Shown: piece after piece, positions 1-22,922 of the stretch
Layout of the letters: every line of letters begins with the position of its first letter
Numbering within the stretch: position 1 is the stretch's first letter
From: a virus
DNA: 23,515 nt
Strand: one strand, 5' to 3'
IMG/VR virus record: IMGVR_UViG_3300008952_000309
Coordinates: 1 to 23,515 of that record
Translations under genes and position numbers: made by a program
Notes under the pieces: generated by a model
Database searches by the model: none
The model's input: only the letters and a program-made list of their open reading frames with translations
Told to the model about the DNA's origin: nothing

Positions 1-328
1 TTTCACTACCCCCTGTGAAACTTTCTTCACCACCTCTTCTCATTTCATTTAAGACAGCAGGATTAATAGATATACATCTGTTTTGAATTTCTTTTGTGTT
101 GTTAACGTACTTATAAGAAATAACAAGATAACCCTTATCAGTTAAACTTGATATGATACTTGATATTCTGCGTGTTGTTACGTTGAAAAGTTTTGATAGG
201 TGTTTGTTAGAGGCATAAAAGGTTTTCTCTTGGTTATCATGAAAACCCTCTATATAAGAAAACAAACATTTTTCCTGTAATGTTAAACTATTATTAAGCA
301 TTACGTAATCGTGAACTACAAAATGCAT
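1..328 (-). CDS. Winged-helix/HTH DNA-binding protein (5' part, runs off left end)
   Basis: This open frame has no stop from the ATG at 328 to the window edge, giving 109 visible residues. Residues 15-35 form a helix typical of the segment before the HTH in phage replication-initiator or MarR-like proteins. Residues 38-62 (YASNKHLSKLFNVTTRRISS and onward) read as a helix-turn-helix, with the recognition helix around VTTRRISSIISSL. A wing follows at about 65-87 (KGYLVISYKYV...). The family resemblance points to a phage replication initiator or transcription regulator; I cannot separate the two without the C-terminal half. An in-frame TGA at 370-368 limits the start, and no better start codon lies between it and the ATG at 328. 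No good Shine-Dalgarno precedes it. It is on the same strand as the lysis genes, 94 bases after the last one. That gap (329-422) holds no gene and no convincing terminator. Confidence 0.72.
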   Translation of the reverse strand, partial: MHFVVHDYVMLNNSLTLQEKCLFSYIEGFHDNQEKTFYASNKHLSKLFNVTTRRISSIISSLTDKGYLVISYKYVNNTKEIQNRCISINPAVLNEMRRGGEESFTGGSE

Positions 329-1107: not shown

Positions 1108-1396
1108 TTTTTTCCTGCATTCTCATAAATTTGTTTTTCAACCCATTTCCCGATAACGATGCTATCACCTCTACTAAAGTTTTGTAAGAATTTTCTATAC
1201 CTTTTTGTTCTAATTGCATTTTTTTTTGTTGGTCAATTAGTTTAACTATAATGGCTTCAACTCTACCGAAACTTTCTCTTAATTCTTTTTGTAGTTCATC
1301 TTGTATAAATTTGTTCTGTTTCCATATAAAAAACCCAAATGCTATTGCAACCACGATAGGTATTCCATATTGCTCTAATATTTGTAACCAATCCAT
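1088..1396 (-). CDS. Holin-like small membrane protein (102 aa)
   Basis: A 102-residue protein with one N-terminal membrane helix at about residues 9-25 (QYGIPIVVAIAFGFFIW), followed by a long charged helix (KQNKFIQDELQKELRESFGR) and a basic C-terminus. The MDWLQILEQYG start followed by an IPIVVAIAFG span recalls the BhlA/UviB group of single-span holins, whose soluble part is a cytoplasmic helix. The start overlaps the stop of the 2353-residue gene by one base (TAATG), with AAAGGA a few bases upstream, so translation is coupled to the end of the ejection module. The predicted role is timed permeabilisation of the inner membrane. The next gene (tail-anchored, XhlA-like) starts within its 3' end. 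No endolysin gene is present in the window. Confidence 0.75.
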   Translation of the reverse strand: MDWLQILEQYGIPIVVAIAFGFFIWKQNKFIQDELQKELRESFGRVEAIIVKLIDQQKKMQLEQKGIENSYKTLVEVIASLSGNGLKNKFMRMQEKNENTKY

Positions 1397-4300
1397 TAAT
1401 TCCTTTCCTCATATATCTTTCTTTGGTTGTTTATAAATTCATTTAAATGACCACCCGTACCATCTTTGCCATACGCCTTTTCTCTATCAATAGTACCATC
1501 TTGTACTGCTAAATCTAAATAATATTTAAACTTATCAGTCCAATGAGTATTGTAATAATGTGATGCGCTTTTGTTTAACATTTTATACATCTTAGATGAA
1601 ATAGTATAATCAGCAGGTCTTTCAACGTGTTGTGATACTATTGGTATAACATTATAATTAATTAATCCTGTTTTAATTTCATCGTTTCTAACTCTTGGTA
1701 GTTCAGCATCTACTATTGCAGATTTTCCTATATCCCAAGATTGTTGTGCAAAATTCCATGCACCACCACCCAAGAAGTTTGCCCACGTTTTTATAGTTTC
1801 AGGACTTATATCAACCATTCCGGGTTCTAATTTATTTCCACCTGTAATATCATTCATCCACTTAGCAGATTTTTTATATTTTTCACTTGTATATCTTTTT
1901 GTTTTAGACCAATCAGGCGTTTCATAATAACCCCACTCTCTTGGATATAAATCATCACCTTTATAATCTTTTCCTTCCCGTATTTGAACAACAGGGTCAA
2001 GTAGTGTTGGTGATATTGTTTGTAGTGGTGTTCCTCCACCTAAAGGATTAAATGAGTGGTCAAGAGAACTAAATATTCTTGCTGTTGCCTCACCCTCATC
2101 TATGTCTCCATTCATATAATCAAAGGCTATTCCTCCTGTTGATTTAAAAACTCCCCAACCATATGGCATTCTTAATTTTAATGCTATTTCACAATCAGGT
2201 GTCATAAACATCATATAATTATCTTTTTTATAACCACTTATTTTATCATATCCTTCAGGACACATTTGTTTATTAATAAAAGCGTTCATCATTCCAAGAC
2301 CAAATAAAGTTCCCGATAAGGCTCTTCCTTTATCTGTAAAAAAGGCTCTCTTTCCTACGTTAACTGCACCCTGCACACCTGCATTAGCAAATAAGTATAG
2401 AGAGTTAACAAGAGAACCCCACTCTCCTTTGCGATTAAAGTTAACAGTTAAATCTTTTGCAACTGCCATTGCTTGTTCCTTGGTCATTCCTTTCTTCTTC
2501 ATAAAACTATAAGTAGAAAGTCTAACACCACTCTCAACAGCCTGATTAAGGTCTTCTATAAACTTAGCAACCTCTCCTATCATTTTTCTTGGTTTGTTAC
2601 CCTTTGATAACATCTCAAGTCTTTTATTTAACTCATTAACTTTTTCATCTACCGTTGCGCTATCAAACCAACCCATCTGCCCACCGGCATCTTTATATTC
2701 TTCATATAATTTATTCCACTTATCACCTGATTTTTTATATCCCCTAACGTTTCTAAATACCCCTTTTAGCGCCAAAGGTATATCTTTCATAATAAGCAAG
2801 GCATCTTCTGTGGTATAATCTACCTGAAGGTTTGCGAATGCTGTTTGAAGGTCTCTTTCAAAATTTGATATAACAAAATTAGGACTGAAAGTTGTGTATA
2901 CTGAACGTAAATGTTTGTTGATTTTTTGGACATATGGGATACTATGTTCAACTCCAATAGTTTTAATTGTTTGCATTAAAGGATTTCTTAGTTTTCCTGT
3001 TATAGGCTCTCTTTCAATGATAGATTGGTCGTTTATCTCAATAATCATAGGAACTCTTTTGCCATTAACGTTGTCTATAAAACCAACCTCATTATCCCCT
3101 AAGTTCTCAGGCATAACATATTCATAATTACCCTCTGTATCCCAAGTTGGTTTATATAATTTATATTTTGGTTTTTTAACTTTCCAAAGACTTGATGGGT
3201 TCTTTTTAATAAGTTTAGCCAAGGTAAGTGAAACTCTATTTTTTTCAACTCTTTGTATTGTTTCTTGTAAGTCAGCAACACTTTGAAGTATAACGTTATC
3301 TGCTCTGCTGTTTCTACCTCCGGCAGGATGTATATCTTGACCCCTAACATCAAAACCTCTTGCCAAGTTCATCATATATTGAACAACACCTGTTCTTCCT
3401 TTTAAAGGAACATAGTTTTTAAATTGTTTTTGATATTGGTCATATTGGTCTTGTGCTATAAATCCATTGTCTAATAATATTTTTAATCTTTTTTGTGTTA
3501 CATTTTTATAAAAACGTTCTGCAATTTTATCTAATTTAGAGCCTTGATATTTATCTATTATATCATTAGCATCTGCGTCTGTCATTCCTGCACCTGCATC
3601 ATTCTCCCCATTTGTTCTTTTTCTTACAAGTTTATTTCTTTCATGGGTGTGTAATGCATATAAATAATCTTCGAGTTCGTTAACTGTGAACCCTGCTTTT
3701 TCGACTGCCTTAAATAAACTCTCAACAAAATCCTCTACCTTTTGAAGTTTTGCTTTTGTCCTTCCGGGATAAGCAACCATTTTTAAATGTACATCTAAAT
3801 CTCTTGGAACACTTGAAAGCGTTTCTTGTACGCCTAACATCCTTGCGTGCTTGTCAACTATCTTTTGGAAAAACCATTCTCTGAGGGTTTCAGGCTCTAA
3901 TTCAAGTTTTCTTTTAACTACTTTAAGTTTATAACTTTCTTGCTTTTGTATTTCAATTTCATTGGCATCAAAAACAACAAAACCCTTTGGAAACGGGTCA
4001 AGGTTTTGAGCCATTTTATTTCCAATTCTAAATTGTATTCCATCAATACCTGCGTTTAATAAAAACATAGATGTTTTTTTATGTATTTCATGAACATTTG
4101 CAGTTCCTTTACCAACATAGTCCATTTTATAAAATTGAGTTGCTACTAAATCATATATATCTCTTGTGTTCCAAGTTCCCGGTGCATCATAAGTTACATC
4201 CATGTGATGAGTTCTGCCTAAGCCATACACAAGGCTTTCATATGTTGAAGGCTTGCCTGTTTGTATAGTATTCCATAACTCAAACAACTCTTGTTGACCC

Positions 4301-7300
4301 TGTTCAGGCAATACGTTTATTGCTTTAATAATTTTTTCTGTTTGTTTTGGATTTGGTGCATCAGACCACACTAAGTAATCATACTCGCTTGGTCTTTTGC
4401 CTTTGTGGATTATAACATCATATACTGTTGATTTATCCCCTTTTTCTGAACCGTCAGGCATATGAGCATAATGCTTTGCTACATCTTTTCTGTCTGTGAA
4501 GTAAGTTCCATATCCCTGCGCTCTTCCTACTCTAACTCCTTTGTCAGGGTCGAACTTTATTATGTTTGGTTTAGTAGAACCATGGAAGGCGCTTATTTGG
4601 TAAGAAGTACCTTTCCGGACACTCTCTCTAATTTCTTTATTTCTTGCTTTAACATCCCTATCACTTCTTCCTTCTTCTCCGGGTTTAGCATCCCCAACTC
4701 GTCCAATTTGTTGAGACTTTTTATTACTCTCGGATGTGGTAAGTTGCTCATTTTTTAGTTCCCACCTTTCTTGTGCTACATCTTTAAAATCAAATGATAA
4801 ATCTTCTTTTCTTGCACCTGAGTTAATATACAAATCTTTTTCGTAATACCAAAGAAGTGCTTGTACATCCTCAGGATTGATACGTTCACCATAAAAATCT
4901 GATAACTTATCTGAGAGCCTATATAATATTTGCGTCATAACCTTACGCTCACTCTCATTTCTTGGTGCATCTTGTTGTTCTGTTCCTGCTATGTTTAATG
5001 GTGTACCCATCCACCTATTGTATGTTCTTGCCCACCACACATCAAATGTTGGATGTTCAGATATTCCGTTTAAATTTAAAAAGAAAGCACCTAATTTTTT
5101 TCCAAACCTTAGAGAACCATAATGTTCCCCTGTTTTATATTTAAAACCAACCTTCTCATTTATATAAGATGCGTCTTGTTTTTCTAATAAAAATCTCATT
5201 GCACCTGACATACCCAAATCTTCAATTAAACCTTCTAACAGTATTAAATGTTCTTTTTGAGCCTTTCCTCTAATTCCACCAACAACCTTAGGAACGTTAT
5301 TTAAATTGTTAACCATTATATATTCGTTAGTGTGTTCTATCCCTGTTTTTTTATCAACAGTTTTCTTTTCCTGTAATAGGTGTTTCCATGTTCCATGCTC
5401 AACAAATTCTTTAACAAGTTCTACTGTTTGTGTCCAATTAGGTCTAACCTTTTGACCGTTAGATGTAATAGCCATCACTATCTTTGAGAATGATTGTAGT
5501 TCAGGCTTTTTGCCAACCTGAGGAACTTCTTTTGTTAAATAATCAAAAGCACCTTGTACACTCTCATTATACCATTTTCTTGCACCATCTATGTTTATTG
5601 TGTTTTTTTGAAGTGCATCCATTATATTTCTAAACCCCTGCAATACTCCTCTATTAATATATTTATTTCTTAAGTGTTTATCTTTAGCACCATCAGGACT
5701 AAGAATAGTTTTGTTTGCAAGTTTTTCTGCAACCTCTTTAACAGGAATAACATCATAACTTGTTCCGTCTCCGTTATATTCCTTGTTAACATTACTAACC
5801 TCTTTTTTAGGCTTTTCTTCTATTTGTATATTAAATTCTTTTTTCTCTGTTCCGGGAAATAGATTGTCATACATAGCCTCAACGTTATCAGGCATTTCAT
5901 ATATTCCATCTAACATATTAAATATTTCTTTAAAACTATCTTTTGCTTTATCCCAAAACTGAATAAGTGGATGACTTCCAAACTCACTTTCTCTTAAAAT
6001 GTATTTAACTCCATTTTTTTCAAAATATTCTTGTTCTGTTAACTTGGTTTTGCCATCTGCTTTTGCATTTTTATAAACCTCTTTAAATTGTTCTCTCTCA
6101 GATATAGGCATAGTTTTATAATAGTATCCTAAAAATTCTTCAATTATAGTATTGTTAGATAAGTTTTTACTATCATATAAACTTAGAACTACTTTATTAC
6201 CACTATCAAAAGTATCAACAGATGTACTTCCCATTATTCTAACCATAGTGACATCTTCAGGGTCGTTTATTCCCTCGCCCTCTAACCATTCAATAAATTC
6301 TTTTTCTGCCTCTTTTTTAGAAATTTGTTTTTCTTCCATAATTTCTTTTATCTTTTTTTCTTTTGTTACTTCATTTACTTTGTCAAATATTTTCAACAAA
6401 GAAGTATCATCAAAGTTTGAATTGTTGCCTAAAATTAAGTACATATAGTTTGCTGTATTTTGGTCAATAATTCCATCTTTCAATGCTTTAGTAACTGTCT
6501 TTACACTATCACGTCTTTTAAATCTTGGTTTTTTAAGGAACTTATTTGCTTGTCTTCCTATCTCAACATTCTGAAAGTTTACAGTATAATTAAATCCTGT
6601 ACCCATTGCAGTAGGAACAAGGAAAGATGTAAACATAGCAGAGTATTCTTTAAAAGATGGTCTTCGGTAGGAAAAACTTTCATCACCATCATCTACTAAA
6701 TGAATAAGTCCTTTTACTCCCATGGCAACCTCTTCCTCAAACAACTCAGGAATAGCACCATGAAAGCCACCTTTCTTTAAAACAGTTGAGAGTTGTCCTT
6801 TAGTCATGTTAGGATTTAACTCTTCTAAAATTTTAACAAGAGATAACCTTGCCATTAATTCTTTCTTAGGTTTAGGCATTTTATTCCAAAGCATAAGAAA
6901 ACCCTCACCTGCCTGCTCTGACATAACTTCTACAAAAGTATCAATAGATGCCCACTTGTAAGCCTCTGTTAAATTCATGCCATCTCCGGTTATCATTGCC
7001 ATATTCTCACCCTCTAAATCAATACCAATTTCAAACTGAGGTAACATTTTTTCTATTGTTGATTTCATTACACGTGGTGAAAATGCTGTTTGGGTTCTAA
7101 TAAGATTAGCACCAACATGAGTGCTTGCCTTAATAGAGTAATCTAATAGTTTTTTCTCTAAAAGTTCACCTCCCGATTTTGTCATTAACTTCTTTAGAGA
7201 TTTTTTTACAAGTTTTTCACTACCTTTTTGAAATGTTTTTGTCATACCACTTGTAGAGGCAATTTCCATAAAGAAAGCAGGCATTTGACTTACGCCCTCT

Positions 7301-8457
7301 AAAACCAAAGCACCCCACGTTGGGTCTACGTTATTTTTATCATAAAACTGTTTTAAAAGTTGAAGGTCTGCGCCTGTTTCAGTTCCAAGTTCTAAGTGTT
7401 CTAAAGCATCATAAACCTCCATTAATTCCATTGCTTCAAGCGTTGAATTAATAAAAGGCAAAAACCTTTTACCATAGCCTGCCTTGATTTCGTCAAAAAC
7501 ATCTCCGGCTGTTTTCTTTTTTGGTTCTTTGTCTACTTTAAACATTTGTTTTTCTAATGCTTGTTCTTTATATCCAAATAAAACATCACCATCATCAGTT
7601 AATAATCTGTATCCCTCATCATATAGTTTTTGAGCGCCTTTCCATTCGTCTCCCAACTCATAGGTTTGAGCCTCTTCAAAGTTGTTTGGTATGTTAATAA
7701 GTGTGTTTAAAATATCATCATCCTCTATATACTTCCAATATCTAATAGGTTCATTTGGGTCTGTTGTCTCGTCATACATTTTAATTAAATGGTAAGTGTT
7801 ATCATCTAACCACATCGGCTGAAAATAAGGTGAAAGGTTAATTGTTGATAAAGGTTGCTCATCACCTTGTTCAACTTTCGTTAAAAAAGCAAAAGGGTTT
7901 GCTGAAGAATATCCTCTAACATCTCCTTTTATAAAGATTTGCTCACTCCAATCCTCTGTGCCAATTATTTCACCATGCGTCATGTTTGCATAAGACATAT
8001 CTTCACTTAAAAGTTTTTCCCACGCACCACCAATATCACCTGCTACAAAAAGTTCAGCAACAGATGGGTATTTTTTTTGTATAAGAGGATTGCTTAAAAT
8101 TTCTTGCTGTGTTAGTTTTGTTGTTATTTTTGTAGGCTTTTCTTTCTTGTAGGACTTGATGTTTTCAATAGTTTTTTTATCGTTTTTAAGAACTATTTTC
8201 CCATCAACATCAATTACTTCTTTCCACTTATTTTCTATAAACTGTAGAAGTGTATCGCTTTTGTGGTCTATTTTAAACTTATCCCCATATGAATTTGGAA
8301 TTGCTTTATCATACCAAGGACTATCAACATCTTCCTTCATATCTGTTTTATAAAGTTTTCCTTGAAAAGAAAATGTTTTTTTAAAACCTAATTCTTTTCT
8401 TGCATTTTTAAATGCCTCTGAAAAATTAGAGTAATGTGAATAATCAGGTACGCTCAT
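1396..8457 (-). CDS. Giant polyvalent internal virion protein with ADP-ribosyltransferase and LPD38-type domains
   Basis: At 2353 residues this is the largest gene here, and it sits at the end of the ejection module like T7 gene 16. Residues 12-42 carry the phage motif F..AF..AR..lG...F.f.Gk.Y.T. Residues 757-790 look like a zincin relic: the usual HExxH position reads E773-E-F-L-G777. Residues 1285-1505 match the ART-PolyVal layout: FHGS (His1292), GYGTYFTD (Tyr1319) and A..YA, ending in AGIDGIQF (about 1470) and VVFDANEIEI (about 1500). Residues 1600-1745 contain ELEDYLYALHTHERN, YVPLKG (1683) and GRNSRADNVI, and EKNRV follows at about 1740. Residues 1840-2250 match LPD38: SPNF..SNFERD (Asp1869), LTVNFNRKGEWG (about 2004) and LFANAGVQGAV, then a FNPLGGG...ISP tail. 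It has only two cysteines (2066, 2089). Known relatives are phage polyvalent proteins that enter the host with DNA. Delivery and enzyme activity here are inferred. Its weak ribosome site (TAGGAAAAT) overlaps the preceding stop. Confidence 0.9.
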   Translation of the reverse strand: MSVPDYSHYSNFSEAFKNARKELGFKKTFSFQGKLYKTDMKEDVDSPWYDKAIPNSYGDKFKIDHKSDTLLQFIENKWKEVIDVDGKIVLKNDKKTIENIKSYKKEKPTKITTKLTQQEILSNPLIQKKYPSVAELFVAGDIGGAWEKLLSEDMSYANMTHGEIIGTEDWSEQIFIKGDVRGYSSANPFAFLTKVEQGDEQPLSTINLSPYFQPMWLDDNTYHLIKMYDETTDPNEPIRYWKYIEDDDILNTLINIPNNFEEAQTYELGDEWKGAQKLYDEGYRLLTDDGDVLFGYKEQALEKQMFKVDKEPKKKTAGDVFDEIKAGYGKRFLPFINSTLEAMELMEVYDALEHLELGTETGADLQLLKQFYDKNNVDPTWGALVLEGVSQMPAFFMEIASTSGMTKTFQKGSEKLVKKSLKKLMTKSGGELLEKKLLDYSIKASTHVGANLIRTQTAFSPRVMKSTIEKMLPQFEIGIDLEGENMAMITGDGMNLTEAYKWASIDTFVEVMSEQAGEGFLMLWNKMPKPKKELMARLSLVKILEELNPNMTKGQLSTVLKKGGFHGAIPELFEEEVAMGVKGLIHLVDDGDESFSYRRPSFKEYSAMFTSFLVPTAMGTGFNYTVNFQNVEIGRQANKFLKKPRFKRRDSVKTVTKALKDGIIDQNTANYMYLILGNNSNFDDTSLLKIFDKVNEVTKEKKIKEIMEEKQISKKEAEKEFIEWLEGEGINDPEDVTMVRIMGSTSVDTFDSGNKVVLSLYDSKNLSNNTIIEEFLGYYYKTMPISEREQFKEVYKNAKADGKTKLTEQEYFEKNGVKYILRESEFGSHPLIQFWDKAKDSFKEIFNMLDGIYEMPDNVEAMYDNLFPGTEKKEFNIQIEEKPKKEVSNVNKEYNGDGTSYDVIPVKEVAEKLANKTILSPDGAKDKHLRNKYINRGVLQGFRNIMDALQKNTINIDGARKWYNESVQGAFDYLTKEVPQVGKKPELQSFSKIVMAITSNGQKVRPNWTQTVELVKEFVEHGTWKHLLQEKKTVDKKTGIEHTNEYIMVNNLNNVPKVVGGIRGKAQKEHLILLEGLIEDLGMSGAMRFLLEKQDASYINEKVGFKYKTGEHYGSLRFGKKLGAFFLNLNGISEHPTFDVWWARTYNRWMGTPLNIAGTEQQDAPRNESERKVMTQILYRLSDKLSDFYGERINPEDVQALLWYYEKDLYINSGARKEDLSFDFKDVAQERWELKNEQLTTSESNKKSQQIGRVGDAKPGEEGRSDRDVKARNKEIRESVRKGTSYQISAFHGSTKPNIIKFDPDKGVRVGRAQGYGTYFTDRKDVAKHYAHMPDGSEKGDKSTVYDVIIHKGKRPSEYDYLVWSDAPNPKQTEKIIKAINVLPEQGQQELFELWNTIQTGKPSTYESLVYGLGRTHHMDVTYDAPGTWNTRDIYDLVATQFYKMDYVGKGTANVHEIHKKTSMFLLNAGIDGIQFRIGNKMAQNLDPFPKGFVVFDANEIEIQKQESYKLKVVKRKLELEPETLREWFFQKIVDKHARMLGVQETLSSVPRDLDVHLKMVAYPGRTKAKLQKVEDFVESLFKAVEKAGFTVNELEDYLYALHTHERNKLVRKRTNGENDAGAGMTDADANDIIDKYQGSKLDKIAERFYKNVTQKRLKILLDNGFIAQDQYDQYQKQFKNYVPLKGRTGVVQYMMNLARGFDVRGQDIHPAGGRNSRADNVILQSVADLQETIQRVEKNRVSLTLAKLIKKNPSSLWKVKKPKYKLYKPTWDTEGNYEYVMPENLGDNEVGFIDNVNGKRVPMIIEINDQSIIEREPITGKLRNPLMQTIKTIGVEHSIPYVQKINKHLRSVYTTFSPNFVISNFERDLQTAFANLQVDYTTEDALLIMKDIPLALKGVFRNVRGYKKSGDKWNKLYEEYKDAGGQMGWFDSATVDEKVNELNKRLEMLSKGNKPRKMIGEVAKFIEDLNQAVESGVRLSTYSFMKKKGMTKEQAMAVAKDLTVNFNRKGEWGSLVNSLYLFANAGVQGAVNVGKRAFFTDKGRALSGTLFGLGMMNAFINKQMCPEGYDKISGYKKDNYMMFMTPDCEIALKLRMPYGWGVFKSTGGIAFDYMNGDIDEGEATARIFSSLDHSFNPLGGGTPLQTISPTLLDPVVQIREGKDYKGDDLYPREWGYYETPDWSKTKRYTSEKYKKSAKWMNDITGGNKLEPGMVDISPETIKTWANFLGGGAWNFAQQSWDIGKSAIVDAELPRVRNDEIKTGLINYNVIPIVSQHVERPADYTISSKMYKMLNKSASHYYNTHWTDKFKYYLDLAVQDGTIDREKAYGKDGTGGHLNEFINNQRKIYEERN

Positions 8458-10897: not shown

Positions 10898-11497
10898 TTA
10901 AATCTCCTCTCTTACTGTATATAGCATTTCTCTGTCACCTTCATCTTTATTGATTTGCTCTATTGCCATTTTCCATAATTGTAAAAATGAACTTGCAGTA
11001 GCAGGGTCAGTTTTTAGAGTAGCCATATAGCAGGCATAATTACATAAATCTTTTTGATATGTTGGTATAATATTTGGTTCTATATTGTTATGTGTAGTTA
11101 TAACACCGTAATAAATTATCTTTATTTTATCCCCTGTTTTTGCAATGTGAGACAAAATTATATTATTATTTTTTACAGCATATCCAATAGGTGTTCCTGA
11201 ATGTAAAGAGTTGTCAGATTTATGATAAAAATCATATTCTTGCATTGCCTTTAATTTAACACCATTATGCAAAACAACGATAGGTTTTTTAAATACAGGT
11301 GAAGTTGGAAGACCCTCATCTTCTGTTGGTAAAACAATAGTGTTTGTTTCTTCATTAAGTGTTTCGGTATGTTCGGCTTCATGTATATTGCAAAGCCTTG
11401 TCATTTCTTCTTCACCTTCTTTTAGAAGATTTGCCAACAAACTTCTATCTGCGTTAACCATTACCTCACATCTATCTGTTAATTTTCTCCAATTCAT
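10898..11497 (-). CDS. Head-tail adaptor-like protein, second copy type (199 aa)
   Basis: A 199-residue protein with an N-terminal helical segment (residues 1-45, NWRKLTDRCEVMVNADRSLL), a central beta domain (about 50-145, with TIVLPTEDEGLPTSPVFKKP and GDKIKIIYYGVIT) and a C-terminal helical segment (LCNYACYMATLKTDPATASS and onward). A helix pair with an inserted beta domain is the fold layout of podovirus tail adaptors (T7 gp11, P22 gp4 type), which join the portal to the nozzle. Another adaptor-like gene is at 15588-16292. One of the two may be the true ring adaptor and this one a tail-completion or hub protein. The preceding stop TAG lies within its AGGAG site. Assigned from predicted architecture, so moderate confidence. 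Confidence 0.6.
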   Translation of the reverse strand: MNWRKLTDRCEVMVNADRSLLANLLKEGEEEMTRLCNIHEAEHTETLNEETNTIVLPTEDEGLPTSPVFKKPIVVLHNGVKLKAMQEYDFYHKSDNSLHSGTPIGYAVKNNNIILSHIAKTGDKIKIIYYGVITTHNNIEPNIIPTYQKDLCNYACYMATLKTDPATASSFLQLWKMAIEQINKDEGDREMLYTVREEI

Positions 11498-18285: not shown

Positions 18286-18298
18286 TTAATCTCCTTAT
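18281..18298 (-). promoter_or_regulatory. Shared ribosome-binding/start segment, copy 1 (fibre gene)
   Basis: The 18 bases around the fibre start, ATAAGGAGATTAAATGGC in coding sense, are identical to those at 16652-16669 upstream of the 118-residue gene. They contain a strong AAGGAG site 6 bases from the ATG. This supports both start choices and hints at duplication or shared selection of the leader. Confidence 0.7.
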
Positions 18299-19134
18299 AT
18301 TGCTTCCGTGTTTGACTTACACGTAATTTTAATTTCTGTGTCTCTATCTATATAATCTTCCCAATCGCCTGCAAGTGGCTCAGGAATTTTTATTCCTACC
18401 CATTTAGGGGTAATACATCTTGCATTTGTAGTACCAATAATTAAATCACTATCCCCAATATAACCTTCATCTACTTCAAACATCTCACTACTACTTGAAG
18501 AACTATCTAATAAGTTGTTGTGAGCATCATAAAAATATGTGTTAATTGCGTCTGTAAAAGGCATATTTGCACCTACCAATGTACCTGAACTATAATATTC
18601 TAATTTTGATGAAAAGTGATATTTATAGTTTCCATTAAAAGGCTTGAACTCAAATTTAATTTCACTCGGATACTCGTCTATTTTATTAAAATTTATATAA
18701 TCTAATGGTGTATTATCATCTTTAAAACTCCAATTAGGTGACCACCGTATATCAACTTGAAATAATGGTGCTTGTTCATACTGACTGCCTGATGGTGTAC
18801 TTATTTTAAGACCAACACTATAAGTTTTAAATTCATCTTCTTTGTGAGTTTTTAAAACTTTTGTCGCATCCCAAATTGTTGACATTCTATTATATGAGGT
18901 TGCGCCCTGCTCAGGCAGGAAACCTTGATAAGGTAATGTAGCAAAATCACCCATTAAAAACATAAAATACGCACCCTCTAAAATATCATCTGTTCTATAA
19001 TCAAAAGATACTTCTAATAAACCTGAGTTATTTATATGTTCTACTTTAACATTTTTAACCGAAATTAACTTATTTTGAAGTTGAGATGTATGCGATTGTG
19101 TTGGTGGTTGTATTTTATAATCTGAAAGTGACAT
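18295..19134 (-). CDS. Beta-rich virion protein of unknown function (279 aa)
   Basis: A protein of 279 residues, counted from the ATG at 19134 (MSLSDYKIQPPTQSHTSQ). That ATG shares one base with the stop of the preceding gene (TAATG), the junction used elsewhere in this genome. A TTG at 19149 would add five residues but would lie inside the upstream gene, so I prefer the ATG. The sequence is beta-rich with many aromatic residues (GLLEVSFDYRTDDILEGAYF, FQVDIRWSPNWSF, YPSEIKFEFKPFNGNYKYHF). It has a run of six serines before MFEVDEGYIG (about residue 215) that probably forms a linker. No signal peptide or membrane span is visible. It sits between the three paralogue-like proteins and the fibre, suggesting an appendage, baseplate-like or fibre-adaptor role. 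I do not recognise a family. Confidence 0.7.
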   Translation of the reverse strand: MSLSDYKIQPPTQSHTSQLQNKLISVKNVKVEHINNSGLLEVSFDYRTDDILEGAYFMFLMGDFATLPYQGFLPEQGATSYNRMSTIWDATKVLKTHKEDEFKTYSVGLKISTPSGSQYEQAPLFQVDIRWSPNWSFKDDNTPLDYINFNKIDEYPSEIKFEFKPFNGNYKYHFSSKLEYYSSGTLVGANMPFTDAINTYFYDAHNNLLDSSSSSSEMFEVDEGYIGDSDLIIGTTNARCITPKWVGIKIPEPLAGDWEDYIDRDTEIKITCKSNTEAI

Positions 19135-19586
19135 TATATTATATACCAATTTTTTATTATGCCTGCACCATCACTTTCATATATACCAAAAGCACAATCA
19201 ATGTTATTTGTTTGAGCAACGGATGAGGTAACTGTACCTGTACTATTAACTGAAGTAATAAGGTTGTTTTTTGTGTGTGTACCCATTAATCCTTGAACTC
19301 TACCTCTAACAACAAAATTATCGTGATAACCTGCGCCTAAACTTGAACTTCCTGTATAAATAGCAATTCTATTTCTATCAAAAGCACGACTATATCTTGC
19401 ATCAGATAATGTAGATGTCAATTTTTCAGCGTGAACTTCTTGCGTATAAGGGTCATTCTCAGTACCACTACCACCTATTTGCAGATAAAGTAAATATACA
19501 GAATTTTGAAGAGGTGATACGTCACAATGTGCTTTTACTTTAAATGTAGAATTTGGCGTATAAACTGCTTCGTCTACTGCAAACAT
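19134..19586 (-). CDS. Virion protein, member 3 of a tandem paralogue-like trio (150 aa)
   Basis: A 150-residue beta-rich protein. It resembles the 137-residue neighbour upstream at matching points: a VKAHCDV strand near the N-terminus, a VYLLYLQI strand, DPYTQEVHAEKL (neighbour: DPYTHKLMAMDG), VVRGRVQG (VVQGKCKL), NNLITSVNSTGTVT (NNLVTGISDAGAIT) and TNNIDCAFGIY (TNIDLAIAVS). This pattern of short shared motifs in order indicates common descent after duplication. Start and preceding stop share one base (TGATG). Function is unknown. The position downstream of the capsid gene and the all-beta character suggest capsid decoration, head fibres or a tail appendage. Confidence 0.72.
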   Translation of the reverse strand: MFAVDEAVYTPNSTFKVKAHCDVSPLQNSVYLLYLQIGGSGTENDPYTQEVHAEKLTSTLSDARYSRAFDRNRIAIYTGSSSLGAGYHDNFVVRGRVQGLMGTHTKNNLITSVNSTGTVTSSVAQTNNIDCAFGIYESDGAGIIKNWYII

Positions 19587-19999
19587 CAGTAAATATATAT
19601 TTCATCAGCATCTAATGATACTGCTATTGCTAAATCTATATTTGTAACACCCGGTGTTGCATCTGTTATAGCACCTGCATCTGATATGCCTGTAACTAAA
19701 TTATTCAGAGTTCCACCTGATGCTAATTTACATTTTCCTTGAACAACCACATCTACTAAATCTCCAATTGCACCTGCGACCTCAACAACTCCCCATCTAC
19801 CCGGCAAAGTATTGGCATCAATAGTAATACCATCCATTGCCATTAGTTTATGTGTATATGGGTCACTTGGTGTTATTGGGTCAACAAGTTCCAAGTAAAC
19901 TCCAACAGGTGTGTTTGCTACAACAACCGATGCTAATGTACATTTTACTACCTGTCTTGCCAAATGATTTGACACAGGTAACGCTGTATTAAATAACAT
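19586..19999 (-). CDS. Virion protein, member 2 of a tandem paralogue-like trio (137 aa)
   Basis: A 137-residue beta-rich protein, the most compact of the trio. In order it has LARQVVKCTLASV, a VGVYLELVDP strand, DPYTHKLMAMDGI, GDLVDVVVQGKCKL, NNLVTGISDAGAIT, TNIDLAIAVS and a YIY C-terminus. The ARQVVK and GD[LI]V[DN]VVV[QK]G motifs also occur in the 191-residue member upstream, and the NNL[IV]T and TNxID motifs in the 150-residue member downstream. This protein therefore bridges the two. It has a strong AAGGAG site and a start supported by its 14-base intergenic gap. The role is unknown; a capsid-decoration or appendage subunit fits the place and composition. Confidence 0.74.
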   Translation of the reverse strand: MLFNTALPVSNHLARQVVKCTLASVVVANTPVGVYLELVDPITPSDPYTHKLMAMDGITIDANTLPGRWGVVEVAGAIGDLVDVVVQGKCKLASGGTLNNLVTGISDAGAITDATPGVTNIDLAIAVSLDADEIYIY

Positions 20000-20013
20000 T
20001 TACTTCTCCTTTT

Positions 20014-20589
20014 TTAATATAATATAATTCTTACTAATTTCCATCCTTCATCCTCAGGAACATCATCCACTACCACTCCCCAAGAGTAGTTTTCCACATA
20101 ACTTTCATCCCCTGCTCTACAATTCAACGCACCATTATGTCCTATCTTTCCAATTTTCAAATTTATACCACTAAATTGGGCTGTGTTAATCCATGCCCAT
20201 GTAAGACCTTTAACTACAACATTAACTATATCACCTTCTTTTCCACCTGTCTCACATATACCATATTCCTGACCAATCTGACCTGCGCCCATCTGCGCTG
20301 TTGCTGATGCACCTGTAGGTTGACTGTCCGTAGAATACCCAACTAATTCCATTTTTGGTATTTTGTCAAGATGTGGTAAATCTGTAAACCCATCAGAATA
20401 TGCAGTTATACTTGGATGTAATTTTTGTGTATGCATATCATGTACGTGTTCTAATTTAATTAAACACCCAACAAAATCTAAGCCACTCCCTGTACTATCA
20501 GTACTTGCCGGGTTTGTTTGTTCTAAATCTTCTTTTAATCGTACTTTAACTACCTGTCTTGCTGTATAATCAATACCATCATGTATCAT
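20014..20589 (-). CDS. Virion protein, member 1 of a tandem paralogue-like trio (191 aa)
   Basis: A 191-residue protein, the first gene after the hairpin that follows the capsid block. It contains YTARQVVKVRLKEDL near the N-terminus, HDMHTQKLHPSITAYSDG, GDIVNVVVKGLTWAW and ends WKLVRIILY. The ARQVVK and GDIV.VVVKG motifs match the 137-residue protein. It is longer because of an inserted middle part with TDSQPTGASATAQMGAGQIG. The start ATG has AAGGA upstream. It is likely a structural protein of head or appendage; no enzymatic motif is visible. Being downstream of the hairpin, its level may differ from that of the capsid genes. Confidence 0.72.
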   Translation of the reverse strand: MIHDGIDYTARQVVKVRLKEDLEQTNPASTDSTGSGLDFVGCLIKLEHVHDMHTQKLHPSITAYSDGFTDLPHLDKIPKMELVGYSTDSQPTGASATAQMGAGQIGQEYGICETGGKEGDIVNVVVKGLTWAWINTAQFSGINLKIGKIGHNGALNCRAGDESYVENYSWGVVVDDVPEDEGWKLVRIILY

Positions 20590-20604: not shown

Positions 20605-20637
20605 AATTGGGGGGAAACCCCATCGTTCCCCCCAAAT
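20605..20637 (-). terminator. GC-rich hairpin after the capsid block (terminator or RNA-processing site)
   Basis: Arms TTGGGGGGAA (20607-20616) and TTCCCCCCAA (20626-20635) are perfectly complementary over 10 bp, with a 9-base loop. Further pairs flank them across one mismatch. Such a run of six G:C pairs stands out in this AT-rich DNA. In the transcribed sense it is followed by AATTAAATAAGG, not a clean U-run, so it may act as a partial terminator or protect and process the RNA. It lies in the 64-base gap after the capsid and 74-residue genes, the place where T7 has its late terminator. A shorter alternative stem, GGGG-AAA-CCCC (20611-20621), could compete with it. Confidence 0.6.
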
Positions 20638-20653
20638 ATTAATGCGAGATTTC

Positions 20654-20878
20654 TTAAGTAGCCTCTGCCCAAGTACCTGCACCATTGGTGTCTACATACA
20701 ACTTACCATTAGTTGTATCAGAGTATAGACATCCTTTGATACCTGTAGTATGGTCAGGTGCGCCTTGACCTGTATAAAAGCGAATACCACCTATAGGAGT
20801 GTAATAAAATCCACCTGCATCTACATCGCTAATTTGACCAACATTAGGTCTATCTGCGCTTGTTTGTGCTGTTGCCAT
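20654..20878 (-). CDS. Small head-associated or decoration protein (74 aa)
   Basis: A 74-residue protein starting 10 bases after the capsid stop with an AAGGAG site that overlaps that stop. The second half, GIRFYTGQGAPDHTTGIKG then CLYSDTTNGKLYVDTNGAG TW, is the common phage motif of G.GaP....kG.lY.dt...kLYv.t.G...W. That motif is found in small structural proteins and at the ends of fibres. The N-terminus is polar and flexible. Pairing with the capsid gene and placement before the hairpin suggest it is made at capsid-like levels, as expected for a decoration protein. It could alternatively be a small appendage protein. Confidence 0.72.
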   Translation of the reverse strand: MATAQTSADRPNVGQISDVDAGGFYYTPIGGIRFYTGQGAPDHTTGIKGCLYSDTTNGKLYVDTNGAGTWAEAT

Positions 20879-20888
20879 TTATTTCTCC

Positions 20889-21947
20889 TTATACATGGTC
20901 AGGTGCGCCACCAACAAGTAAGCCTTGCATTCTTGGATTAGTACAAGTCAATTGACCCATCCAAAATATTTTTGCAACTCTACTGTCTTGGTTCACCGGT
21001 TTTTGGAAATCTTCAAAAGCAAAATTTCTCTTACTATGTACTTTAAAGTCAAGATATTTAGTATTTAAAAAATACATTTGACCGGCAGGTACGTGACTGT
21101 CAACAACGACAGTAGCGCCTTTAAATCTAAGAGTTTGGAAACCTGCATCTGCTAAATCAGACGCACCTTCAAACCTTTTATTAGACATTAAAGAACTTTC
21201 ATATGCATCCATAAGAGGCTGAGTAGTCACGATTAAATCAGGACTATCATTATCTATGGTACAAGTTCCGTACATTTTAGTCATATCTTGTACTATGTTT
21301 GATACACCATTAGAGGCAGTTATGTGTTCTGACCATAAACTATCGTCAGTACCATCTGCTGTTGAAAACGATTGCACTACAGCATCCCACCAAGAGTAAG
21401 TTGCACTATCAATGCCACCTAAGGCTCTTTCTGTACCTATGATACAGTTATCAACTTCACTTGAAAAGTAATTACCTGTTCCTGCACTTGCATCATATTT
21501 CGCACCACCTAATGCAGTAATTTCGCCTGTAGCAGGTGCTGTTGCACCATCACCATTGAACATACTGTCACCAAACATATCTTTAAGAGATTTTTCTGCG
21601 TTACGCATCTTTGATTTTAGTAACGATAAAACTTGACTATCACCTGCATTTTTCAATTCATCTTCGCCTGAAATTGAAATTGTGCTATATGCTAAGCACC
21701 AATCCCACTCTGCTGAAGTAATTGGGTCACTTGGTGTTGTATCAAGTACATCGTAACCTGAATAGTAGCCTTGAGCCGTATTCTTTCCATATTCAAGTGG
21801 TGTAATAATCTTTTTACCACCATCTAATTTCTCAGCATTTTTCAATAATCTAAATGCTAATACATTAGAGTTAAAAATATTATCCACTAAAACAGGGATG
21901 AATTTGTCTCTTGTTAAACTACTTAAAGCGTTATAATTCAAAGACAT
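20889..21947 (-). CDS. Major capsid protein (352 aa)
   Basis: A 352-residue protein directly after the scaffold-like gene, with a strong AAGGAG site. Near the N-terminus LTRDKFIPVLVDNIFNSNVL is followed by LLKNAEKLDGGKKIITPLEY, a pattern seen in marine and environmental podovirus capsids. The middle has DMFGDSMFNGDG and the segment IDSATYSWWDAVV; PDLIVTTQPLMDAYESSL and GATVVVDSHVPAGQMYFLNT are typical of HK97-fold capsid P-domains. The length is close to T7 gp10A (about 345). It would build the icosahedral head around the acidic scaffold encoded just upstream. I see no second, frameshifted form. The T7-like order scaffold then capsid supports the call. Confidence 0.85.
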   Translation of the reverse strand: MSLNYNALSSLTRDKFIPVLVDNIFNSNVLAFRLLKNAEKLDGGKKIITPLEYGKNTAQGYYSGYDVLDTTPSDPITSAEWDWCLAYSTISISGEDELKNAGDSQVLSLLKSKMRNAEKSLKDMFGDSMFNGDGATAPATGEITALGGAKYDASAGTGNYFSSEVDNCIIGTERALGGIDSATYSWWDAVVQSFSTADGTDDSLWSEHITASNGVSNIVQDMTKMYGTCTIDNDSPDLIVTTQPLMDAYESSLMSNKRFEGASDLADAGFQTLRFKGATVVVDSHVPAGQMYFLNTKYLDFKVHSKRNFAFEDFQKPVNQDSRVAKIFWMGQLTCTNPRMQGLLVGGAPDHV

Positions 21948-21962
21948 TTTTTATCTCCTTAA

Positions 21963-22922
21963 TTACGAATTAAAATAGCGTGAGATTTCAGGACTATCCA
22001 TATTAATATCATTGTAGTTCTTAGGACTATCTCCGGAACGAACTTCCTTTGCGCCTATTTCAGAATTTCCAATTTTACTTTCCTGATTTCTCATTCTATT
22101 GTTTGTCAATTGCTCAGATTGAGAGTTCTTTGACATTACCTTATCATAACTCCACAGTTTAAATGATGCATCCATATCAATATCTCCATCAGTAATAACG
22201 CCTCCGTCATTACAAAACTGAAGAAAATCTAAACCATCATTGTCTGCTTGGAAAAAATCAGGATTAGTTTGTTTAATGTTATCAAATCTATCACCAATAG
22301 AATGAGTTAATTTCTCATCTTCAAGGTTTTCAATTCTATCCATTAAACCACCTATTCTTTCATCTTCTTCCCAAACATCCTCAGATACTTCAATATGGTC
22401 ATTTTTAGGTTCAGGTTCAGTAAAATCTACTTTATACTCACCATTAAGTCCATATTTTTTAAGTTCACCTTCATCTTCATAAAAGTATTCCTTAACATGG
22501 TCTTTGAACTCTGCGTCATTATCAAGTAATTCAAGCAACCTACTACCTTTTGCAATTGCTTGTGCTTTCTGAGTGTTAGATTTATTCCAATCATCTTTAT
22601 TTTGGCTATCTTTCTGCCACTCCAACACAGTATCTAAAGAATAACTATCATCACCAATCTGCAATTCATAATCTCCATCAAGGAAATCATCAACTGTTTC
22701 AGGTTTTTTAGTTAAATCATCCATTGAACTATCAATAGATGAATTAGATACATCCCCTTTATCTTCATTTACTTCTTGGCTTACTTTTGAACTTTCGGCA
22801 CTTGAAGGTTCTGTTAAAGGTTGATTTAGACTTTGAGAAGATTTATCCTCGACCTGAGATAAACTACCTTTCTCTTCATCTGTGACTTCTATATTACTAT
22901 ATACGTCAGGCATTTTAGACAC
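21963..22922 (-). CDS. Capsid assembly scaffold protein (319 aa)
   Basis: A 319-residue, strongly acidic, Ser/Asp/Glu-rich protein. The N-terminal 75 residues are low-complexity (SLSQVEDKSSQSLNQPLTEP). A structured part follows, with VDDFLDGDYELQIGDDSYSL DTVLEWQ and a predicted helical region (ARGIAKGSR-like stretch AIAKGSRLLELLDNDAEFKD). The end, NSEIGAKEVRSGD...YFNS, is polar. Composition, size (T7 gp9 is 307 residues) and position just upstream of the capsid gene identify it as the scaffold, which would fill the procapsid and leave before DNA packaging. The start has AAGGAG. Family membership is inferred from these features, not from a motif. Confidence 0.76.
   Translation of the reverse strand: MSKMPDVYSNIEVTDEEKGSLSQVEDKSSQSLNQPLTEPSSAESSKVSQEVNEDKGDVSNSSIDSSMDDLTKKPETVDDFLDGDYELQIGDDSYSLDTVLEWQKDSQNKDDWNKSNTQKAQAIAKGSRLLELLDNDAEFKDHVKEYFYEDEGELKKYGLNGEYKVDFTEPEPKNDHIEVSEDVWEEDERIGGLMDRIENLEDEKLTHSIGDRFDNIKQTNPDFFQADNDGLDFLQFCNDGGVITDGDIDMDASFKLWSYDKVMSKNSQSEQLTNNRMRNQESKIGNSEIGAKEVRSGDSPKNYNDINMDSPEISRYFNS

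Follow-up and report, generated by a model that had tools for sequence, protein, structure and literature searches.

The locus considered here raises the question of what is encoded by three adjacent genes, gA, gB and gC, that follow the capsid module of a virus, and whether their products could work together on the virion. The window, i.e. the whole stretch of DNA that was analysed, is a viral record 23,515 bases in length, with its main genes on the minus strand. In order of transcription, the region comprises a gene at 21963-22922, the capsid gene, a 74-aa gene, gA, gB, gC, gD and gE. The first of these (minus strand) occupies the usual scaffold position and is without a family match. The major capsid protein (20889-21947, minus strand) was assigned by its match to the major head protein family PHROG 9953 (E = 1.1e-59). 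gA lies close to the capsid gene, with only the 74-aa gene (20654-20878, minus strand) between them. The 74-aa gene is conserved in relatives (18 phmmer matches in 80 loci, the best at 3.7e-28), and no meaningful family match to its product was found in Pfam and PHROG searches. A G6/C6 stem-loop (20608-20634, minus strand), conserved in the closest relatives, lies in the spacer ahead of gA. The three genes follow at 20014-20589 (gA, 191 aa), 19586-19999 (gB, 137 aa) and 19134-19586 (gC, 150 aa), all on the minus strand. The gB stop and the gC start share one base (TGATG), and the start of gD (18295-19134, minus strand) shares one base with the stop of gC (TAATG) if gD begins at the ATG at 19134; the open-reading-frame list has an upstream TTG start at 19149. 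From these overlaps, gB and gC look translationally coupled to gD. gA, gB and gC each fall below every Pfam, PHROG and NCBIfam cut-off, and gD has no meaningful match in the same three collections.

Elsewhere in the window, a 2353-aa protein (1396-8457, minus strand) matches Pfam LPD38 (E = 2.5e-33) and, weakly and below the cut-off, ART-PolyVal (4.9e-4); from these two matches it is probably a polyvalent protein. A 199-aa protein (10898-11497, minus strand) matches the SU10 adaptor protein above the Pfam cut-off (E = 2.7e-8), which suggests a short-tailed phage. An open-ended reading frame at 2-328 (minus strand) resembles phage replication initiation proteins or DnaD-like helicase loaders (PHROG 270, E = 1.1e-9).

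Relationship of the three proteins

Relatives were gathered through the capsid gene; 80 of 140 loci were kept, and all open reading frames of at least 50 aa in them were searched. A profile started from gB and the single-unit homologues described below was then iterated. The sequence-only reading had proposed three tandem, divergent paralogues downstream of the capsid block with the middle protein as the link, and both BLASTP and the profiles bear this out. By BLASTP, gB reaches gC (E = 3e-8) and gA (E = 3e-5), and the direct comparison of gA with gC gave nothing better than E = 0.44. The ordered motifs reported earlier are present, but they are shared by pairs and not by all three proteins. 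ARQVVK occurs in gA and gB, as does GD[LI]V[DN]VVV[QK]G, of which gC has FVVRG only; DPYT and NNL[IV]T occur in gB and gC. gC reads TNNID and gB reads TNID, so that the earlier pattern TN.ID fits gC only.

Profile searches recovered all three proteins. A 53-row profile of the relatives' domains gave 59.5 bits for gB, 23.1 for gA and 14.6 for gC; like the profiles that follow, it contains no window protein, but is not fully independent of them since the relatives were gathered by an iteration that included them. A 24-row alignment (A6), likewise free of window proteins, gave E values of 9.9e-18, 4.8e-8 and 1.3e-5 for gB, gA and gC, respectively, and the corresponding hhalign values were 2.7e-15, 1.2e-6 and 6.6e-5. 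A profile built from three single-unit genes alone found gB and gC and missed gA (E = 2.4).

The empty gA-gC BLASTP comparison and the shortness of the shared motifs are what would be expected if the likeness were convergent or compositional, with short Gly/Val-rich strand motifs recurring in unrelated β-proteins. We consider this very improbable: the scores of all three proteins with the 53-row profile lie far above the best of 3 × 1000 shuffled sequences (7.5 bits) and above the next window protein among those listed (2.6 bits), and the models of gA and gB align end to end with the same structures. By sequence comparison, gA, gB and gC are strongly diverged paralogues, and gC looks the most diverged.

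Predicted folds

gA and gB were modelled with AlphaFold2 using family alignments, and gC was placed in the family by sequence alone. The gB model (pLDDT 85, pTM 0.75) has nine strands. The gA model (pLDDT 65, pTM 0.63) has a strand order like that of gB, with expanded loops of low confidence; its input alignment included gB and relatives, and it therefore leans towards the family fold. Both proteins are thus predicted to be all-β. In profile alignments, gA residues 6-29 correspond weakly to profile positions 11-34 and residues 106-177 to positions 65-133. The gap in the match at positions 34-65 indicates that the intervening loop is expanded, by about 45 residues relative to the profile.

Foldseek searches with the gB model returned 260 matches; among the best 50, the 31 with the lowest E values were all phage head entries, with E values from 3e-3 to 0.2 and none below 1e-3. 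The top 21 matches of gA were also all phage head entries. In a second structural alignment, the gB model gave Z scores of 9.8 to an HFTV1 capsid chain, 8.5-8.4 to FCWL1, 8.3 to T1, 8.0 to XM1, 7.6 to a C-terminal fragment of the phi29 tail appendage gp12, 7.6 to Pam3, 7.3 to the phi29 head-fibre base gp8.5 and 6.8 to TW1, where a value below 8 may, by the alignment tool's own caution, reflect just a common arrangement. Lower matches comprised MoeA-type enzymes (Z of about 5.5) intermixed with further phage heads. The gA model (pLDDT 65) gave Z scores of 6.8-6.6 to FCWL1, HFTV1 and T1, all in this cautionary range, together with 5.7 to the phi29 gp12 fragment and 3.0 to MoeA. The HFTV1 chain (PDB chain 8qsy_JI) is presumably gp18, judging from its length and from the available text of PMC12494034. 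The gB model thus has a β-tulip-type all-β fold (Z 9.8 to 6.8). Since MoeA is listed as a homologue of the β-tulip protein gpD in PMC7602432, the background matches of gB are as expected for such a fold. The same-fold comparison agrees for gA and gB, whose models match the same capsid proteins along their length. A search of the sequence profile against PDB chains gave no meaningful match.

Among Pfam families, PF09956 (Phage_cement_2) was the most frequent match of the family, with weak hits to 11 of the 41 members of the alignment. It exceeds the cut-off of 24 bits in L022 and L105 (one contig), with 28.3 bits for the three-unit protein of a relative; gA, gB and gC do not match it.

Homologues and gene order in related loci

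The cement unit, i.e. the domain shared by the three proteins, is the first gene 3' of the capsid gene in six loci (L012, L024, L025, L026, L027 and L031), several of which are near-identical to each other. gB matches the single genes of L025, L012 and L027 with phmmer E values of 6.5e-14 to 6e-13 and groups with the single genes in the tree (support 90/91). By these sequence comparisons, gB appears to be the standard version, akin to the lone cement gene that its cousins have after the capsid gene. In other loci the post-capsid slot holds either a gene of the 74-aa type or a member of a 159-186 aa family. The conserved 73-86 aa protein of the 74-aa type alternates with cement-like genes in this slot. 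The 159-186 aa family (L010, L013, L016, L030, L073 and others) may be an alternative decoration protein, and its member in L010 matches a PHROG virion structural family (1.1e-5). A relationship of this family to the cement unit was not supported (hhalign probability 0.3 per cent).

The cement unit was present in 14 and absent from 36 of the 50 contigs searched out of 80, and those of L003 and L005 are among the contigs without it. Viral contigs scanned with gB and gA as single proteins yielded no relatives, and a four-member alignment recovered six loci, none of them on a contig new to the set. No match was obtained in a scan with gE, in a genome-contig scan, or in tblastn searches of 'phages' with gB and the single gene of L012.

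In L003, L004 and L005, whose capsid proteins share 87, 85 and 80% identity, respectively, with that of the window, a hairpin of the G6/C6 type follows the 74-aa-type gene, and immediately after it comes a gene for a protein of 353, 324 and 310 aa, respectively. This spacer with its hairpin is also present in the window, where gA-gB-gC come next, ahead of gD. A profile of nine proteins from this slot matches gD modestly (E = 2e-4) and at the expected position; by sequence and position, gD is probably the homologue of the gene directly 3' of the stem-loop in these three loci. Because the closest kin pass straight from the hairpin to a gD-like gene, the trio forms a discrete three-gene block. 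This block would separate the fibre-like genes from the capsid cassette, and may have been gained in the window, or lost in the kin, directly past the conserved stem-loop. Of 17 loci examined, 15 have a hairpin-forming spacer 3' of the slot gene, and the other two lack a slot gene. At −1.5, the folding z-score of the hairpin in the window is modest (three relatives reach −2.1 to −2.7), and the stem-loop is not listed by a simple terminator scan, so that it is termed a putative terminator.

Large proteins of 711-945 residues carrying cement units are found between the terminase and portal genes of relatives. Exactly three units were counted in 20 of 20 distinct complete large reading frames in the loci scanned, which represent two families (nine and eleven members) and thus not 20 independent cases. 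Eight of nine reading frames cut by a contig end hold two or three units, with cut units counted, and one short reading frame holds one. Several of these proteins contain inserted carbohydrate-binding domains; CBM_4_9 matches are above the cut-off in L073 (= L104), L031 and L108. In the second large family the first unit is split by an insert at profile positions ~50 to ~69, and by sequence alignment the enlarged loop of gA appears to lie in the same part of the domain. L027 and L031 each have both a single-unit gene and three-unit chains, and in L012 the slot of the three-unit proteins holds a tail-fibre gene. Paired three-unit proteins occur in the terminase-portal interval of L101-L108 and L111-L136 and are candidate single-chain capsid trimers. 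In the tree, gA falls close to the single genes and to the first large protein's unit 1, but with weak support, and the very long branch of gC could not be placed. A one-to-one correspondence of gA, gB and gC with fused units 1, 2 and 3 was not found.

Probable capsid decoration and known systems

The structure matches of gA and gB and the recurrent Pfam cement family favour capsid decoration. Our main reading, to which we assign a probability of roughly 0.7, is that gA, gB and gC are diverged copies of a β-tulip cement domain, expected to form trimers on the outer head. Each would trimerize, alone or mixed, and the trimers would bind the outer head where three capsid subunits meet, i.e. at (quasi-)threefold sites by analogy with known cement proteins. 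Bound trimers would stabilize the shell and could display extra loops outwards. Capsid binding, trimerization and any gA-gB-gC heterotrimer are here deduced by analogy. The earlier proposal of a decoration or appendage system is upheld by the fold matches and the family, and its 'unknown type' can be narrowed to the capsid cement or head-fibre-base class of β-tulip proteins. Of the proposed multi-part system, diverged duplicates of a decoration or appendage protein stand, and a joint action of the three would be a further step that we only infer.

The position of the trio does not favour the cement reading, since it lies beyond the hairpin and adjoins fibre-like genes; a place past the stem-loop that closes the capsid cassette argues against capsid-level expression. 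The trio could instead be tail or neck appendages that use the same β-fold as trimeric adhesins close to the tail, alongside the fibre-like gD and gE. The variable module past the stem-loop, the one-base gB-gC and gC-gD overlaps and the similarity to the phi29 gp12 fragment agree with such a location; this similarity, the place past the hairpin beside fibre-like genes, the tail-fibre slot of L012 and the missed cut-offs give it some chance. Most structure matches and the only often-recurring Pfam family are, however, capsid cement proteins, and the single-unit homologues lie directly 3' of the capsid gene in six loci; we judge a tail or neck location to be improbable.

Within the cement reading, two arrangements can be weighed. 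An arrangement of three separate decoration proteins, in which each forms homotrimers at a site of its own and mixed trimers are absent, comes somewhat short of an even chance. The trimer is the most typical state of decoration proteins in the available part of PMC7602432, gB groups with the single genes instead of with any one domain of the fused chains, and both gene types occur together in L027 and L031. Against this stand the exact count of three units in every complete fused chain, the one-base gB/gC overlap and, according to the accessible text of PMC11945409, the placing of two paralogues in one trimer by T1. The strict count fits the trimeric state reported for β-tulip decoration proteins and suggests that the fused chains are single-chain trimers; by extension, a gA-gB-gC heterotrimer could exist. 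A tentative proposal, and on balance an unlikely one, is that the three are unlike subunits of an obligate heterotrimer on the capsid, equivalent, as separate genes, to the single-chain, CBM-bearing, glycan-binding trimers in the cousins. Under it, three cement units would have become fused in the cousins and gained carbohydrate-binding modules, converting a shell-stabilizing trimer into a capsid adhesin that binds glycans. If mixed trimers form, the three tandem cement genes would allow each threefold site of the head to present three different surfaces, and the fused chains of the relatives would amount to naturally occurring single-chain trimers. The comparison also offers a clean case of capsid decoration genes duplicating, diverging, fusing and acquiring sugar-binding modules.

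Among known assemblies, the herpesvirus triplex (Tri1/Tri2, VP19C/VP23) is a heterotrimer. It belongs to different viruses. PMC7602432 includes the triplex among the β-tulip decoration proteins. As far as the available texts of the cited papers describe them, β-tulip decoration proteins are trimers on capsids (PMC7602432), a trimer of the HFTV1 CSP binds each capsid-protein trimer (PMC12494034) and the phi29 gp8.5 base is a trimer at quasi-threefold sites (PMC6542822, PMC7602432). HFTV1 gp18, TW1 gp56 and phi29 gp8.5, all outer-capsid trimers in these accounts (PMC12494034, PMC7602432, PMC6542822), are among the best structure matches of gB, but a three-paralogue or three-unit arrangement is not described for them in the same portions. 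Among the titles and abstract openings covered, the two-paralogue case of T1 was the only mixed, tandem, fused or sugar-binding cement system. T1 gp48 and gp49 (Pfam PF22758, Phage_cement) are likewise paralogous β-tulip cement genes beside the capsid gene, and T1 matches the gB model with a Z score of 8.3. Sequence similarity to the trio family was not found (hhalign probabilities of 0.5 and 2.0 per cent in comparisons with gp49 and gp48). T1 differs in having two paralogues instead of three and in the C-terminal Ig domain of gp48. Its capsid carries gp49 homotrimers and heterotrimers of one gp48 with two gp49, as stated in the available part of PMC11945409. On that account, a cement heterotrimer built from two paralogues is already known, and the three-paralogue arrangement is the variant seen here.
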